Source of the DNA: Methanoculleus sp.
GTDB taxonomy: Archaea > Halobacteriota > Methanomicrobia > Methanomicrobiales > Methanomicrobiaceae
Direction of reading: 5' to 3'
DNA length: 49,069 bases
Assembly: GCA_011045995.1 (NCBI GenBank)
Contig: DSBQ01000043.1
Coordinates: forward strand, 1-49,069
The position numbers and the translations under genes are program-made. Position 1 is the first letter of the stretch; every line of letters starts with the position of its first letter. Below are positions 2,182 to 37,787 of the stretch, one piece after another. Under the pieces are notes generated by a model. The model had not been told where the DNA came from. It made no database searches and was given only the letters and a program-made list of their open reading frames with translations.

Positions 2182-2256
2182 GTTACATGGCCATTCTTAA
2201 CAAATTGGCGACGTCAATACCTTTATCATCAATATTCCACAAATTTAGCTATTATC

Positions 2257-3171
2257 ATGACGTCCGGTGAATATCCAACGGCAAAGGTCAACGGGAAGGA
2301 CATTCCCTACGATCCTGAGGTGCTCAGAAAAGTAAAGGAGCATCCCTGCTACAGCGAAAAGGCATGCCACACCTTCGGCAGGATGCACCTTCCTGTAGCT
2401 CCGAAATGCAATATCCAGTGTAATTACTGTATCCGCGATTTTGACTGTGTCAACGAGAGCAGGCCCGGCGTCTGCAGTGAGGTACTCTCCCCGGAGCGGG
2501 CACTGGAAATGGTGAGACAGGTCCTCGCAAAGTACTCGTACATCAAGGTTATCGGGATTGCCGGCCCCGGCGAACCCCTTGCAAATGAGGAGACGTTCGA
2601 GACGCTGCGCCTCCTCAAAGAGGAGTTCCCGGTACCGATCAAGTGCCTCTCCACAAACGGGCTCGTGCTGCCGGAAAAAATCGACCTCCTCGAAGAATAT
2701 GATGTCGGGAACCTGACCGTCACCTTAAACGGGATCGACCCCGCCATCACGGAGAAGATCTACGAACACGTCACTTGGGAAGGGAAGAAGCTGCGTGGAC
2801 GCGAGGCCGCAGAAAAACTTCTCGAACAGCAGCTCAGGGGTATCGAGATGGCGGTAGAACGCAAGATGCTCGTGAAGATCAACACGGTCGTCATCCCCGG
2901 AGTAAATGAAGACCATGTCGTGGATATTGCAAAGAAGATGGGAGAGATGGGCGTCTATACCTACAACCTCATTCCCGTTATCCCGCAGTACAAGTTCGCG
3001 GACATCATCCCGCCGACGCTGGCCCGCAAGCGTGAACTGCATGATGCCTGTTCACCCTATATCCGCCAGATGAGGCACTGCGCCCGATGCCGGGCGGATG
3101 CCATCGGTCTTCTGGGAAAAGATGTACAGAACGAAATATACCGCAGCGGATGCGACGGCTGCAAAGAATAA
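2257..3171 (+). CDS. nifB: NifB, radical SAM FeS-cluster (NifB-co) synthase, stand-alone form
   Basis: A 304-residue radical SAM enzyme. The SAM-cluster motif CNIQCNYC is at residues 51-58, inside the NifB-typical stretch HLPVAPKCNIQCNYC. Further family hallmarks are HPCYSEKAC (Cys31, Cys37), NESRPGV, and near the C-terminus RHCARCRADAIGLLG followed by GCDGC (Cys299, Cys302). These cysteines are candidate ligands for the two accessory FeS clusters that NifB fuses. NifB joins two 4Fe-4S clusters with a SAM-derived carbide into the 8Fe-9S-C NifB-co (L-cluster). There is no NifX-like C-terminal domain, as is usual in archaea. No nifH, D, K, E or N is visible anywhere in the window. The ATG at 2257 fits the family N-terminus. 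There is no Shine-Dalgarno, so the mRNA is probably leaderless. A T-tract follows the stop. Confidence 0.93.
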   Translation: MTSGEYPTAKVNGKDIPYDPEVLRKVKEHPCYSEKACHTFGRMHLPVAPKCNIQCNYCIRDFDCVNESRPGVCSEVLSPERALEMVRQVLAKYSYIKVIGIAGPGEPLANEETFETLRLLKEEFPVPIKCLSTNGLVLPEKIDLLEEYDVGNLTVTLNGIDPAITEKIYEHVTWEGKKLRGREAAEKLLEQQLRGIEMAVERKMLVKINTVVIPGVNEDHVVDIAKKMGEMGVYTYNLIPVIPQYKFADIIPPTLARKRELHDACSPYIRQMRHCARCRADAIGLLGKDVQNEIYRSGCDGCKE

Positions 3172-3173
3172 TA

Positions 3174-3181
3174 TTTTTTTT
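3174..3181 (+). terminator. U-tract terminator after nifB
   Basis: A run of eight T begins three bases after the nifB stop codon, the usual form of an archaeal terminator. Confidence 0.6.
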
Positions 3182-30913: not shown

Positions 30914-31858
30914 TCACACCATAATCTTTGTTTCAGAGAACGGCCTGATGCGCACGAGGATGTAATTGCGCATACGGGAGGGGAAAAATTCGGCGACATC
31001 ACCGATTTGTACTCCGTTTTCGATCTCGATCTCTTTCATCAGTGCTGCATAAGGGTCATAGGGGACCTTCACCCGGAGACCGGCAATCTGTACCGTTATC
31101 GGCGTTGGGTGGGTGGAGCCGGCGGTGATGTCCATCGCATCGTCGATGACGGTCATCAGGCGGGCGGGACTGACAGAGGGGCTGTCTTTTGCCACCTCTT
31201 CCCGCCGTATGGTGAGCACCCTGGCAACTTCGTCCACCAGCGCGTCCAGGCGGTCAATCTCTCCCACCTGTTGACGCATGCGGTGGCCGATTCTGCCAAT
31301 CCCCCCGACATACCCTTCGACCGGTGGGTCAATGATCCTTCTCAGGGCCTCGGTGTCAGGGCGTCCGGTCAGGATAATCGGCACCTTAATTCCCCTTCTG
31401 AGGGCCGGCATCTTATATTCGATACATGATTCGAAGTTTCCCAGTAGGATTACGGCACAATCGTGCTCATTGATAATGTCACGTTCTTCAATGTTGAGAT
31501 TGGCAATGCGCTTTCCAAATCCGCGGGCAAGTCCTACCATATTTGTCTTCGCGCCAGCCTGGCGGAGGTACTCAGCTACATCGCAGGAGGAGTGGGGGAG
31601 ATGGTGAATTTCGAGGCTGGGAGAGACGACAGCAATCTCTGTCCCCACCAGGGGCGATTCGATAACCTCCCCCCCGAGCGGCCTGCTGATCCTTCTGATC
31701 AACTCAATGTCATCCTTTGGTACGAGTGACTGGAGGACGATATCCTGTGCAATCATGTGTTTCTGTACGATGTAGCCGCCGAGGTCGTCGATCAGGTCGA
31801 TGATAATATCATGTTTGAATACCCCGCCTTTGTAGGTGATGGGGACAAGTGTAGTCAT
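30914..31858 (-). CDS. mmp7: Methanogenesis marker protein 7
   Basis: A 314-residue protein that I recognise as methanogenesis marker 7, found only in methanogens and other organisms with MCR. It begins MTTLVPITYKGGVFKHDI. Conserved cysteines are visible in HLPHSSCDVAEY and LLGNFESCIEYKMP. Biochemical work on MCR activation placed this protein in the complex with component A2 and McrC. The ATG at 31858 overlaps the mmp17 stop by 4 bases. It is the last of the seven tightly packed cluster genes. It has no classical CxxC ferredoxin motif. Confidence 0.9.
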   Translation of the reverse strand: MTTLVPITYKGGVFKHDIIIDLIDDLGGYIVQKHMIAQDIVLQSLVPKDDIELIRRISRPLGGEVIESPLVGTEIAVVSPSLEIHHLPHSSCDVAEYLRQAGAKTNMVGLARGFGKRIANLNIEERDIINEHDCAVILLGNFESCIEYKMPALRRGIKVPIILTGRPDTEALRRIIDPPVEGYVGGIGRIGHRMRQQVGEIDRLDALVDEVARVLTIRREEVAKDSPSVSPARLMTVIDDAMDITAGSTHPTPITVQIAGLRVKVPYDPYAALMKEIEIENGVQIGDVAEFFPSRMRNYILVRIRPFSETKIMV

Positions 31859-32439
31859 TCTGCCTCCTCCATAAGACGGAATTTTTCTGCTACAAGCGTA
31901 TCGATGAGATCCTCTTCAAGGGTATTTTCCGACGCAAGATAGAAGAATCGCCCCTCGCTGATCGATTCCCGCCGCACCTTGAATCCTTCGGGAGCGATCC
32001 ACTGGAGTGCATAAATGATGTCCCTGTAGAGGCCTGCGGAAGGGTCCACAACTTCGATATTTTCAATATCCCTGGGATTTAAGTCGGGTACACGGATAAA
32101 GACGGTAAACCTGTCCGGCTGGTCGATCAGGTCTCTCCCGAACCTGTCCCAGAGCACGGTGAGCATCTGTGAAAGGTAGGTCTCTTCGCCGATATCGAGG
32201 ACAACACCATCCTCTTTTTTTAGGGCACTTGAGAAATCCCCAATCCTTACTGTCCCCGGAATCTGCTTGATGAGGCCGACGGCAAGAAAGAGCGGTGTCC
32301 CGGGATCGATAAAGATATGGAGTCTTCCGATGGACTGGCTCAGGTTAAGGTCTTTCAGGATGTTATCGGCAATCTGCTGATAGGTCTGCCGTCCTGCTTC
32401 TTCGACGCATTCCACTTCGAAGTACTCAAGTGCCTCCAT
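31855..32439 (-). CDS. mmp17: Methanogenesis marker protein 17
   Basis: A 194-residue methanogen-specific protein, recognised as marker 17 from its sequence (EALEYFEVECVEEAGRQTYQ, then GRLHIFIDPGTPLFLAVGL) and its place between markers 15 and 7. It has been reported as part of the MCR activation complex. I set the start at the ATG at 32439, preceded by GGGGAGAG about 8 bases upstream. The frame stays open further, but those residues fall inside mmp15. The stop overlaps mmp7. The sequence is mixed alpha/beta with a single visible Cys, so any cluster ligand role is limited. Confidence 0.88.
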   Translation of the reverse strand: MEALEYFEVECVEEAGRQTYQQIADNILKDLNLSQSIGRLHIFIDPGTPLFLAVGLIKQIPGTVRIGDFSSALKKEDGVVLDIGEETYLSQMLTVLWDRFGRDLIDQPDRFTVFIRVPDLNPRDIENIEVVDPSAGLYRDIIYALQWIAPEGFKVRRESISEGRFFYLASENTLEEDLIDTLVAEKFRLMEEAE

Positions 32440-32443
32440 CTCT

Positions 32444-33685
32444 CTACTCTCCCCTGATAAAGCCGGATGAGAGGAGAGCCGATCCGACTGCCCCGATGTA
32501 CTGGGCATGGTGCGGTACCACAATGTCGGTCTGAAGAAGGAGCCCCATCTCCTTTACCAGACCCTCGATAAGAGACGTCCCGCCGACCATGATGACCGGC
32601 TCTTTGATGTCGACCTCCTGCAACTGCTGCTCAAAGACCTGTTCTGCAACGCTGCGGCATGCCGCTGCTGCGACATCTTCCCGGCTGTGTCCCTCTGCAA
32701 GCGCATTTACCAGGCTCTGCGTTCCGAAGACGATACAGTATGAATTCATCGGGACCTCTTTGGAGCTCCCTTTCATGGCAATCGGTCCCAGTTCGGTGAT
32801 GTCAACGCCGATGCGCTTGGCGGTCATCTCCAGGAATCGTCCCGATGCCCCGGCACAGATGCCACCCATCGTGAATGTCCCCGGAATACCGTCCTGAACG
32901 GATATCGCCTTGTTGTCCATGCCCCCGATATCGATAACAGTGGCTTCGCCATGCTGCTTGTCTGCGAGATAGACAGCCCCTTTTGAATTGACGGTAAGCT
33001 CCTCCTGAATAAGATCGGCGCCGATATGTCTTCCGACAAGGAATCTGCCGTACCCGGTAGCGCCAATGGCTTCGACTTCATCAATTTTGAGCCCGGCTTC
33101 CGAAAAAGCACTCTCCATAGCTGTCTCTGCGCTTTTCAGAACCTCGGTTGTTGGAGTCCATCCGGTGCCGATGATCTTGTTGTCCTGCATAACGACGGCC
33201 TTTGTCGTGGACGATCCTGAATCAACCCCGAGTGTGATCCCCACCTGTTGCTCACGGGCAAGAAGTGCCCGCCGCCGTGCGATGGTGGTCAGGGCTTCCA
33301 TACGCGTGAGGAGCGTTCCTGACGTGGTCCGTTCGGTAAATGAGTAACTTACCACGGGCAGGTTGGAATTCTCATGAATATAACGGCGCAGTTCATTTCG
33401 CACGATTGCCGCTTCCGAGCACCTGAAGCAGGTGGCAATGAAGACGGCATCTGCCTCCACTGCTCCTTCCACCAGTGCCATCGCACGCGCGATGGCAAGT
33501 TTCAGGTCGCCTGAACGGGCTTCCAGACCAAACGCATCATAAGAGCGACGGATGTCTGCCAGTGTCACATCCGGGAAGAACATCTCCGCATTGACCATCG
33601 CGGCTGCATCGTAGATCTCTTTTTGTACGCCACTGTGTTCGGGGCCACAGGAGAGCTGGGCAACCCGCACCGGCTGTTCATTCAT
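32444..33685 (-). CDS. mmp15: Methanogenesis marker protein 15, activase-type ATPase
   Basis: A 413-residue two-part protein. Residues 148-413 are an ASKHA ATPase like the activator of 2-hydroxyacyl-CoA dehydratase: phosphate loop [29 protein letters not shown], Cys277 in [20 protein letters not shown] and Cys317 in [12 protein letters not shown]. These two Cys match the activator's ligands for a 4Fe-4S cluster shared by a dimer. Residues 1-147 resemble the dehydratase partner subunit ([19 protein letters not shown]) and add Cys13, Cys86 and Cys89 (ATCFRCS). By analogy it couples ATP hydrolysis to low-potential electron delivery, which fits reduction of MCR nickel. Start and stop overlap mmp5 and nearly abut mmp17. 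Confidence 0.9.
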
Positions 33686-34137
33686 GCATCGTCACCTCCT
33701 CCAAGGGCGGCTAAAAACTCCTTGATAGAGGCAACAAATGCAATCCCCTCCTCTTCACAGGTGGGATATTTGATATCGAGGAGAGGAATATCCTTACGCT
33801 TTCTCAGCAGGTACATCACCAGCTCGTTGGTGCGTGAGCACCCCATGCACCCAAAGGAAAGGTCGGCGTCGTTGATGATGATTGCCGCATCGGCCTCTTC
33901 AATCATCGGGCCGTAGAGGGCCATTCTGCCCCTCACTCCTGCGGGAACCTCCACTGCCGCCCAACGAAGCCCTTTTTTGGGGTCTTCAGGGGTCATCTGA
34001 AGGGGAGGGGAATCAAGGCTGGCCGTCTGAATCCGTTCTCTGATGGCTATCGCGGCACCCAGGGGTTCGTGGCCCCAACGCTCTACCATATCGGAGAGCA
34101 CCAGGCTTGTGGCAGGATATATGAACACTTTTGCCAT
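33682..34137 (-). CDS. mmp5: Methanogenesis marker protein 5
   Basis: A 151-residue methanogen-specific protein, recognised as marker 5 from [21 protein letters not shown] and its cluster position. A CxxC is visible in [17 protein letters not shown], and another Cys in YPTCEEEG. Together these could bind a metal or FeS cluster. The function is unknown. It is consistently grouped with markers 3, 6, 7, 15 and 17 and so is inferred to serve MCR maturation or activation. Its stop overlaps the mmp15 ATG by 4 bases. Confidence 0.87.
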
Positions 34138-34143
34138 AATGAA

Positions 34144-34608
34144 TCAGTCTTCCTCATTTTCGATGATTTCCAGGAGCTTTTCCACCGGCAGCTTCCCTTC
34201 ATCCAATTTTTTCTTCTCAAATTTTTTTACCGAAACAGGTCCTGAGGCCGTTTCTTCCAGACCGCGTGATATGTAGCGGAGAATGCCACTTTCAAACTCA
34301 TGCCCGTAATAGCCGGGACGGGCTCCACCAAGGTTTGCACGGCAGCGCCGCGGATCACCGGGGGGAAAGCCGCGATCTTTAACAAAAATATGCGCAGGGT
34401 CAACCTTACGGAGTTCGCGGATGAGCATCTTCACCTCATCGGGCTTTCCCGTGACCTGGAGGCCGAAACAGGTCTCTTTGATCATCACCCCATCGGATAT
34501 CTCATAGGCACGGATTGCAAGCGTCTGGGGACTAACATTGGGGGAATCGATGAAGACATATTTTGTCACGGTCCCGACGTATGAAGGGGCGTACATCTTC
34601 TGCGTCAC
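34144..34608 (-). CDS. mmp6: Methanogenesis marker protein 6
   Basis: A 154-residue methanogen-specific protein, recognised as marker 6 by context and sequence (TKYVFIDSPNVSPQTLAIRA, then DRGFPPGDPRRCRANLGGAR and YYGHEFESGILRYIS). Two conserved-looking Cys are present (ETCFGLQVTG and RRCRAN). The C-terminus is Lys/Glu-rich (KKFEKKKLDEGKL). The role is unknown. Its ATG overlaps the mmp3 stop by 4 bases, and mmp5 follows after 6 bases, so the three are translationally linked. Confidence 0.87.
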   Translation of the reverse strand: MTQKMYAPSYVGTVTKYVFIDSPNVSPQTLAIRAYEISDGVMIKETCFGLQVTGKPDEVKMLIRELRKVDPAHIFVKDRGFPPGDPRRCRANLGGARPGYYGHEFESGILRYISRGLEETASGPVSVKKFEKKKLDEGKLPVEKLLEIIENEED

Positions 34609-36161
34609 CGCTTCACCTCCCTGAGATATACCGTTGTTCCTTCCTTTAAACCCTCGAGCTTCTCCGGTTCAAGGACTTTTCCGATGATATTGGTACTCTC
34701 CAGCGGTTCTGAAGTTGGACCAAATTCAGAGGAGGAAACAGTGCGGACTCCCACAAGACCCGCCGCCTTTCTTGAATCATTGGTCATTGCAAGCAGGTAG
34801 GCGGAAACCTCACCCTCGGGGAGGTTCTCCCTGTGGATATTGGTCTTTTTCGATACTTCCGGCTGGAAGAGATAGACATCTTCAAATTTCATCAGGAGCG
34901 GCATCTCGCCGATGTCATGCCACCTGAGTCCCGTAACCGACCTGAAGATGTGGCAGGTTTTCGGGGCCTCGTCATCGAAGAGTTCGATGGTTATGACCTG
35001 GCTCAGCGGGACGGTCGTAATAGCAACCTTTCCTTCGGCGAGGATTTCAAGCGTAGTTGTCGGTTTCTGTGAAAAGACAACGCTCTTTTTCTCCTCGGTG
35101 TCCGATTCCGGCGTTATCCCGCGTTCAGCAGCTAGCTCCAGTGCTTCCCCGAGCTCCATTCCCCTGAAATCGAGCTGTTTTGGCTCGACTCGCATGATAA
35201 ACGTCTCGTCATCCTGAGCAAGAATCGGAAGTTCAATCCCCTGCTCGACCTGGCCGACGACCGTATGATGGGCACTTCCGGGGATGTCTTCGGTATAGAT
35301 ATACATCGAACCCCGGTTTTTCCCATCAACGCGGGTGGTAATGGTCCCTTCAAACCGTGAATGAGGTTCACCCTCATATTCTACAATACTCTCCTTCATC
35401 CGGTCGTCCCTGATGTGGGTACTGGATGCCAGGCTGACGGTCATTCTTTCACCCGCCATGGTCCTGAGGAGATGTTCGACACTTGCTGCCCGTGTTGTAT
35501 CAATGGCGTCCTTCCGGTATCCGGCTGCCGATGCAAGGACATGGCTGAAGATCTGCATCCCATCCGTTACGGGTGTTGACATATCAGTCGTGGTAAAGGC
35601 GGTGGATGTATCAGCACGACTCATGAGCCGTTCCATTCGCAGGATCCTGTCGCCCTTGCTCCATGCTTCCAGGACTGCCATCCCCGAGACAACCCGTGCG
35701 ACAATGCCGCCGTCAGCCTGCCCACCATGATCGGCGATATGAGGGATCCGTGAAAAAATAAGATATGAAGTCCTTGAATCATACCCTCCACAGCCAAGGA
35801 TAACATCCCCCCGTGCATAGCGATGCTGACGCCGGTCAGGATTGATGTCCGTTGAAAATGGGCCGAATGCCACAGACTGGCGGTCAGTCCATTTGACTGA
35901 GAGTTCTTCAGGTTCGCTTTCGGCACTCACGTATTCGGCAATGAAGCCCTCTGAGAAGAATGCTGCTGCCTCTTCCAGGATCTCGATAACAACCTCGCCG
36001 GCACTTGTAAGAAGTCTGATATTGCGCGTAAGTGCTGCCTGTGCCTCTGCCGGAGGAATGACTGCAACACTACAGGAAGAAGGGTGCCCGGGGAGAAGAT
36101 CCCCAAGGGTTGCACTATCGTCTATCTCCAGCCTCGTTCCATCGAGGCGGATTTCCAACAT
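34605..36161 (-). CDS. mmp3: Methanogenesis marker protein 3
   Basis: A 518-residue methanogen-specific protein, reported as a component of the MCR activation complex with A2, McrC and markers 7 and 17. I recognise it from its length, position and sequence. GDVILGCGGYDSRTSYLIF and the region IARVVSGMAVLEAW resemble a cyclophilin-type prolyl isomerase fold, as does a repeated segment later (ITIELFDDEAPKTCHIFRSV). Two such beta-barrel units may be present. Catalytic activity is not assured. It follows atwA by 15 bases and overlaps mmp6 by 4. Confidence 0.9.
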   Translation of the reverse strand: MLEIRLDGTRLEIDDSATLGDLLPGHPSSCSVAVIPPAEAQAALTRNIRLLTSAGEVVIEILEEAAAFFSEGFIAEYVSAESEPEELSVKWTDRQSVAFGPFSTDINPDRRQHRYARGDVILGCGGYDSRTSYLIFSRIPHIADHGGQADGGIVARVVSGMAVLEAWSKGDRILRMERLMSRADTSTAFTTTDMSTPVTDGMQIFSHVLASAAGYRKDAIDTTRAASVEHLLRTMAGERMTVSLASSTHIRDDRMKESIVEYEGEPHSRFEGTITTRVDGKNRGSMYIYTEDIPGSAHHTVVGQVEQGIELPILAQDDETFIMRVEPKQLDFRGMELGEALELAAERGITPESDTEEKKSVVFSQKPTTTLEILAEGKVAITTVPLSQVITIELFDDEAPKTCHIFRSVTGLRWHDIGEMPLLMKFEDVYLFQPEVSKKTNIHRENLPEGEVSAYLLAMTNDSRKAAGLVGVRTVSSSEFGPTSEPLESTNIIGKVLEPEKLEGLKEGTTVYLREVKR

Positions 36162-36176
36162 ATTCTGATTACCCCA

Positions 36177-37787
36177 CTAGACATTTGTCATTATCTGGCG
36201 CTCCTGTTCCGAGAGTTCCTTAAGAACTTCCGCTGTGGGGCCCATCTTTACAATTTTTCCGCCCCTCATGAGGATACAGCGGTCACAGATGTCGCGCACA
36301 AATTCCATGTCGTGGGAAACTACAATAAATGTTTCATCTATCTCTTCACGGGCCGTCATAATCGAGTGTTTCACATCGATCTTCGTGATCGGGTCCATCG
36401 TACCCGTCGGCTCGTCGAGGAGAACAATTCTCGGCTCCTTAATCAGTACCTGGGCGAGGGCTACACGGTGCTTTTCGCCCTCTGAAAGCTGGTCTGGTCG
36501 CCTGGTGAGTATTTTGTTCGCCTTCTCCTCAGTAAACCCTGCCATTTTGAGGGTGATGATCGCCTTTCGCATCGCCAGCTCTTTGGGAAATTCCAGGCCT
36601 ATTGAGTCGGTCAGGTTGTCAAGAACATTCCGGTGAGGATAGAGATCATACTCCTGGTGCAGCAGACCGATATACTTTTTTGCCCGTCCGCGCTGATTGA
36701 TCCCCGGCTTTGTCATGTCCACGCAGTCTTCACCGATGCGAACGTTCAGTTCACCGTCCGTTGGCTCGAGGACTCCTGCAATCATCTTGGAGAGTGTCGT
36801 TTTGCCGGCACCGGATATGCCGATTATCCCAAATATCTCCCGTTCCGCAACGGTAAATGTGACCTTGTCGACCGCCTTAATCATTCCACGGTCGACGGAT
36901 ACGTACCGCTTTGCCACATCGCGCGCCTGCAGGATCTGCTGGCCAAGTTTGGCTTTATGCTGCCCGTAGGCCATTTCGTCCTTTCCGTTGGCCAGGAACG
37001 TATCAATGATCGTTCGCGGATCACCTATCGCCTCAATAGTCCCGTCAACAAGAAGGATTGCCCGGTTACAGGTGTCGGTGATGACCTCAGGAAAGTGTGA
37101 GGAGATAACCATGGCCATATTATTGTTATTGGCGGCTTCGGAGAGCATTTCGTGGACAATCGCCGCGGTACGCGGATCGAGTGTACCCGTTGGTTCATCG
37201 GCACAGAGAAGGAACGGTTCCTTTGCAAGCTGTCGTGCCAGCACCACACGCTGTTTCTCACCACCGGAGAGATCACGTGCAATATGCATCATACGGTGAG
37301 ACAGCCGGACTTCATCGAGAAGGTCCGCCGCCCTGTTGATTGCCTTTTCACCCGGATAGCCTATATCGGCAAGGGCATGAAGAACATTTTCAATGACACG
37401 GTCATCGCCATATAATGCAAATGTTCGCTGGAACATGATTGCAGATCTGACCATGATCTGTCGTTTCTTATGCGCATTTTCTTCAGCCCAGAAATTCACG
37501 TCTTCTGAAACGAGTTTTTTGCCGCATTTCGGACATGCGTCTCCAGATTTGCTGGGGAGATCGACATAGCCGCACCCTTCACATGCAGAGATATGGTAGA
37601 TGATCTTTCCGCTGGTTGGAGGCTGATCCACCCCACGGAGAAGGTGCATGAGCACCGTCTTGCCAGCACCACTCCGGCCAATGATGCCCATAATCTCACC
37701 CTCTGCTATTTCAAAATTGATATTGTTGAGAACGACATTTCCACTGAATTCCATGGAAAGATTTTGAACAGTAAGTAGAGGCGCCAT
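36177..37787 (-). CDS. atwA: Methyl-coenzyme M reductase activation component A2 (ABC ATPase)
   Basis: A 536-residue soluble ABC protein with two nucleotide-binding domains and no membrane segment. Domain 1: Walker A GIIGRSGAGKTVL (about 34-46), signature LSGGEKQRVVLARQL, Walker B LLCADEPTGTLD. A zinc-ribbon insert with Cys69/Cys72 and Cys85/Cys88 (ACEGCG, ACPKCG) follows the first Walker A. Domain 2: GIIGISGAGKTTL, LSEGEKHRVALAQVL and IVLLDEPTGTMD. This is component A2, which provides the ATP-dependent step that reduces the nickel of cofactor F430 in MCR. It is the first gene of the marker cluster. An A/T-rich promoter lies upstream. Confidence 0.94.
   Translation of the reverse strand: MAPLLTVQNLSMEFSGNVVLNNINFEIAEGEIMGIIGRSGAGKTVLMHLLRGVDQPPTSGKIIYHISACEGCGYVDLPSKSGDACPKCGKKLVSEDVNFWAEENAHKKRQIMVRSAIMFQRTFALYGDDRVIENVLHALADIGYPGEKAINRAADLLDEVRLSHRMMHIARDLSGGEKQRVVLARQLAKEPFLLCADEPTGTLDPRTAAIVHEMLSEAANNNNMAMVISSHFPEVITDTCNRAILLVDGTIEAIGDPRTIIDTFLANGKDEMAYGQHKAKLGQQILQARDVAKRYVSVDRGMIKAVDKVTFTVAEREIFGIIGISGAGKTTLSKMIAGVLEPTDGELNVRIGEDCVDMTKPGINQRGRAKKYIGLLHQEYDLYPHRNVLDNLTDSIGLEFPKELAMRKAIITLKMAGFTEEKANKILTRRPDQLSEGEKHRVALAQVLIKEPRIVLLDEPTGTMDPITKIDVKHSIMTAREEIDETFIVVSHDMEFVRDICDRCILMRGGKIVKMGPTAEVLKELSEQERQIMTNV

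Follow-up and report, generated by a model that had tools for sequence, protein, structure and literature searches.

A stand-alone nifB in a Methanoculleus genome without detected nitrogenase probably serves the MCR activation complex

Introduction

What does a methanogen in whose genome no nitrogenase is detected do with NifB? The question is raised by a stretch of 49,069 nucleotides of Methanoculleus DNA (hereafter the window), which is contig C7 of a fragmented MAG of 66 contigs and 82% completeness. A sequence-only reading of this DNA had proposed that its NifB is a maturation factor for the MCR activation complex, and had suggested a genome-wide search for nifHDKEN and a survey of the co-occurrence of nifB with mmp genes.

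NifB is described as essential in methanogens, including those without nitrogenase genes, and as probably helping to form the clusters of MCR activation (PMC12176620, Nature 2025); the essentiality claim rests there largely on a 2023 preprint by Saini et al. The gene lies directly 3' of mmp genes in M. marburgensis (PMC12176620). A second paper mentions that NifB of a diazotroph may have a further function and says no more (PMC8809328). Since a role of NifB in MCR activation is stated in PMC12176620, and was thus already proposed in 2025, we regard the finding as correct yet not new, and the comparative data presented here support it. If MCR activation needs NifB, a 'nitrogenase' cofactor enzyme would underlie nearly all biological methane, and methane chemistry rather than nitrogen fixation may have been where the cluster was first used, as argued in PMC12176620. 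What is added here is quantitative co-occurrence, a presence/absence contrast within one genus, the conservation of acceptor ligands in a non-diazotroph and a case against the one nitrogenase-like pair of the genome as an alternative client of NifB.

Results and discussion

An intact and conserved NifB

The nifB gene of the window is an intact, single-copy reading frame of the methanogen type. Its product passed the NifB equivalog model TIGR01290 with 347.8 bits (cutoff 343.65), and its closest solved relative is 6y1x (E 8.5e-129). The start codon is backed by the congeners, of which one (G046) has a stop two codons 5' of the equivalent ATG. Every ligand published for methanogen NifB is present: the radical-SAM CX3CX2C motif (C51/C55/C58); the K1 ligands C31, C130 and H44, equivalent to C29, C128 and H42 of 6y1x; the gating-loop residues C64 and E67, equivalent to C62 and E65 of 6y1x; and the K2 ligands C265, C275 and C278, equivalent to C264, C274 and C277 of MaNifB. 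The earlier description of an intact NifB with radical-SAM and accessory cysteine sites is thereby confirmed. Compared with the enzymes from Methanothrix thermoacetophila (6y1x) and Methanosarcina acetivorans, the protein falls into the same length class, likewise without a NifX domain, and has identical radical-SAM, K1 and K2 ligands; it differs from them at the sequence level only, and in that its host has no detected nitrogenase.

Comparison with the two congeners, G046 and G108, yielded dN of ~0.03 and dS of ~0.6–1.1 (dN/dS ~0.03–0.06), which indicates that the protein is kept by strong purifying selection in a genus without nitrogenase. In a tree of 44 NifB sequences it groups with the copies of its congeners, of Methanogenium and of further Methanomicrobiaceae, indicating vertical inheritance. 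Tandem duplicates of nifB occur in some relatives (G101:C2:2001453-2003513; G077:C42; G109:C35).

Features of the window, with coordinates, strand and basis of assignment
Feature	Position	Strand	Basis
Putative core promoter element of nifB (CCTTTATC, TATA-like)	2220..2227	+	Shared by both congeners and, in part, by Methanogenium
nifB, radical-SAM L-cluster synthase, 304 aa, without NifX domain	2257..3171	+	TIGR01290, PDB 6y1x, ligands, dN/dS
T8 tract, putative archaeal terminator	3174..3181	+	T-tract directly 3' of the nifB stop codon, here as in both congeners
mmp7, proposed L-cluster acceptor	30914..31858	-	TIGR03274, 396.3 bits; alignment to 8s7v_H
mmp17	31855..32523	-	TIGR03291, 170.4 bits
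mmp15	32444..33685	-	TIGR03286, 734.9 bits
mmp5	33682..34137	-	TIGR03271, 226.6 bits
mmp6	34144..34608	-	TIGR03272, 143.6 bits
mmp3	34605..36161	-	TIGR03268, 453.6 bits
Component A2, ATP-binding subunit of the MCR activation complex	36177..37787	-	TIGR03269, 856.6 bits (cutoff 517.1)

A stand-alone transcription unit

The gene 5' of nifB points away from it, and a CCTTTATC-type box lies ~30 nt before the ATG. Given this arrangement, together with the box and the T-tract shared by both congeners, nifB is likely to be transcribed alone, apparently as a monocistronic unit, as had been suggested earlier. The own terminator claimed for the gene corresponds to a putative archaeal-type poly-T terminator that follows the stop codon; a search for a hairpin 3' of nifB found none. 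No match to an NrpR-type operator (GGAAN6TTCC or GGTAN6TACC) is present anywhere in the window; with the stand-alone position of the gene, this suggests constitutive rather than nitrogen-regulated expression.

No nitrogenase in the genome or its congeners

Searching the host genome with PF00142 and PF00148 revealed one NifH relative, CfbD and a divergent NifDE-like/NifK-like pair; CfbD is encoded on contig C13, whereas the NifH relative and the pair lie at the ends of C34 and C4, respectively. As all these matches sit on other contigs, the window itself contains no nitrogenase-family gene, which agrees with the sequence-only reading. NifDKEN was found neither in the 82%-complete host genome nor in the two congeners (G046, 96% complete in 2 contigs; G108, 91% complete). 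The C34 NifH relative was considered as a nitrogenase NifH and rejected: at 422 bits it clears the CfbC cutoff of 402 and narrowly misses that of NifH, and in the congeners its copies lie directly 5' of the NifDE/NifK-like pair.

NifB might nonetheless serve a nifHDKEN cluster hidden in the unassembled 18% of this fragmented genome, the more so as a curated nitrogenase alpha subunit is found in 27 of the 149 genomes of the order Methanomicrobiales. We consider this very improbable, because neither congener has a NifD or NifH over the cutoff, the window lacks the NrpR-type operator, and NifB is retained in ~120 of the 122 members of the order without NifD.

The divergent pair is present in the host and in most of the order, and a CfbC-type gene stands immediately 5' of it in four relatives (G046, G108, G007 and G045; L034:5508-7896 in G046). 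In the host, CfbC and the pair lie at the ends of C34 and C4 (L001, L007:9157-11275); these ends are probably adjacent in the genome, since the congeners join CfbC to the pair and the orientations match. Like CfbC and CfbD of F430 biosynthesis, the pair has by sequence a nitrogenase-superfamily fold with interface cysteines. In an alignment with true NifD, NifE, NifK and NifN from G009, a diazotrophic relative, the interface cysteines of the D-like protein are kept, while the equivalent of NifD Cys275 is missing (LVQC is replaced by NVxRx), as is the whole C-terminal segment bearing His442; Cys275 and His442 are the cofactor ligands of NifD. The 82%-complete genome yielded no NifDK or NifEN with both residues, and the congeners gave the same result.

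Could this pair be the client of NifB? Its wide distribution would allow it, and methylthio-alkane reductase, another nitrogenase-like enzyme, uses NifB-derived clusters (PMC12552129). The pair differs from nitrogenase, however, in the absence of the cofactor ligands, so that nitrogenase-like binding of L- or M-type clusters is not expected and the pair is an unlikely recipient; moreover, NifB is kept where the pair is missing, as in the 99%-complete genome G044, which has NifB, Mmp7, McrA and McrC, with CfbD only and no divergent pair. Supply of the pair by NifB thus appears most unlikely. CfbD itself is stated to be free of an [8Fe-9S-C] cluster (PMC12176620). The role of the pair is perhaps tetrapyrrole-related. 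Two genomes of family f9 that gave no match to NifB contain nitrogenase-alpha-like matches with broken frames (G228:C57 and G236:C11), which may be nif genes in decay.

Acceptor sites for the cluster

The MCR activation genes that had been noted in the window of nifB were identified with TIGR models at 30914-37787, in the order A2-mmp3-6-5-15-17-7. They form one operon with adjacent A2, whereas the mmp genes are dispersed in M. maripaludis (PMC12176620). The operon lies ~28 kb from nifB, and in other Methanomicrobiales no linkage of nifB with mmp genes within 10 kb was found.

The solved activation complex of Methanococcus maripaludis contains three [8Fe-9S-C]-type clusters, held by H49, H118, C55 and C12 of McrC together with C143, H84 and possibly C90 of Mmp7; according to the structure paper, the carbide awaits spectroscopic confirmation (PMC12176620). 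Nitrogenase-precursor-type clusters in such a structure had also been named in the sequence-only reading. Of that complex, the window encodes A2, Mmp3, Mmp7 and Mmp17, and another contig, C38, encodes McrC, so that the host possesses these components. Alignment with 8s7v_H places H86, C92 and C145 of the window Mmp7 at H84, C90 and C143 of the solved protein, and alignment with 8s7v_I, from which the McrC positions were counted, shows the equivalents of C12, H49, C55 and H118 all kept. Hence seven of the seven residues holding the three L-type clusters are conserved in the host proteins. With NifB and the acceptor sites present and no nitrogenase found, the organism has the synthase and the acceptors, and no detected nitrogenase-type client.

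From the ligands that it conserves, and by analogy with NifB proteins studied elsewhere, NifB would use SAM to fuse two [4Fe-4S] units into [8Fe-9S-C]. Delivered to the three McrC and Mmp7 sites, the clusters would form an electron path that reduces the Ni of F430 during ATP-driven activation of MCR.

NifB follows Mmp7 across genomes

As tallies at E<=0.001 also catch other radical-SAM proteins, weak matches (G089, G145) were left out of the NifB count. With these discounted, NifB is present in 146 of the 149 genomes of the order. A phylum-wide sample of 147 genomes yielded Mmp7 in 88; nifB occurs in 87 of these irrespective of nifD, which is present in 20. Among the 59 genomes without mmp7, nifB or a NifB-like gene is found in eight, one of which has a nitrogenase alpha over the cutoff (G196) and another a split one (G204). 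The association of nifB with mmp7 is strong (Fisher p ~1e-29, a value that ignores shared ancestry). NifB persists in the Mmp7-positive genomes without a nitrogenase alpha over the cutoff (67 of 68) and in those without any NifD relative beyond CfbD (37 of 38), in keeping with the earlier statement that NifB occurs in methanogens beyond those shown to fix nitrogen. In the sole Mmp7-positive genome without an intact NifB (G189), a fragment comprising 70 C-terminal residues is encoded at a distance of 11 kb from mmp7 (L059:5000-5600); it represents either a pseudogene or an assembly break.

More telling than the Fisher value is genus g44, whose family, f9, we take to be Archaeoglobi-like from its set of genomes. 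Three genomes of the genus (G192, G212 and G239) have Mmp7, with nifB ~9 kb from mmp7; among them, McrA was checked, and found, in G192. There, nifB is placed between mmp14 and mtrH-mtrA-mtrC-mtrD-mtrE-mmp7-17-15-5-6-3, and A2 and mcrA lie within ~30 kb. A fourth genome, G159, lacks mcrA, mmp7 and nifB together. The MCR island of the genus (L143:3715-19381 and L144 in G192; also L058, L145) comprises mmp8, an A2-like gene, mmp14, nifB, TfrB-like and GlcD-like genes, mtrHACDE, mmp7-17-15-5-6-3, A2 and the mcr genes, and is missing from G159.

Taken together, the co-occurrence of nifB with mmp7 rather than nifD, the conserved acceptor ligands, the g44 island and its absence from G159 make the sequence-only proposal of a maturation factor, supported also by the lack of a detected NifDKEN, the best explanation. 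We judge it roughly 85% probable that NifB is a housekeeping L-cluster synthase of this non-diazotrophic Methanomicrobiaceae methanogen that would supply the MCR activation complex.

NifB-like proteins in archaea without MCR

NifB could instead fill some other housekeeping role, its link to MCR reflecting mere shared ancestry. This possibility draws on a NifB-like protein encoded in six genomes of families f11, f16 and f19 that lack mcrA, mmp7, CfbD and any nitrogenase relative (L052, L053, L054, L055 and L056 in G153, G161, G169, G175 and G185; also G180); a further copy is found in G266, which was checked for NifB only. All five f16 genomes examined carry it, and the copies of the lineages compared are 64–86% identical to that of G161. 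NifB-type proteins are therefore not bound to MCR alone. In the tree of 44 sequences, however, these proteins form one well-supported clade, the position of which calls for caution because of long branches, and this separate branch lacks the C64/E67 loop (C62/E65 in 6y1x numbering): the radical-SAM cysteines, C31, H44, C130, C275 and C278 are kept, E67 and C265 are gone and C64 is mostly gone. As canonical NifB is, in addition, tied to MCR gene content by the g44 contrast and by the mcr/mtr/mmp island, we hold a different housekeeping role to be highly unlikely and favour supply of the MCR activation complex.

The neighbours of the NifB-like genes, namely HerA/NurA/Mre11/Rad50 genes and SufB/D in f16 and PyrBI and HMG-CoA reductase in f11, offer no hint of their function. 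If functional, the clade might conceivably feed a third kind of enzyme with [8Fe-9S-C] or a related cluster, neither nitrogenase-like nor an MCR activation complex, a suggestion that we put forward tentatively and with some doubt. The occurrence of this clade may be newer than the link between NifB and MCR.
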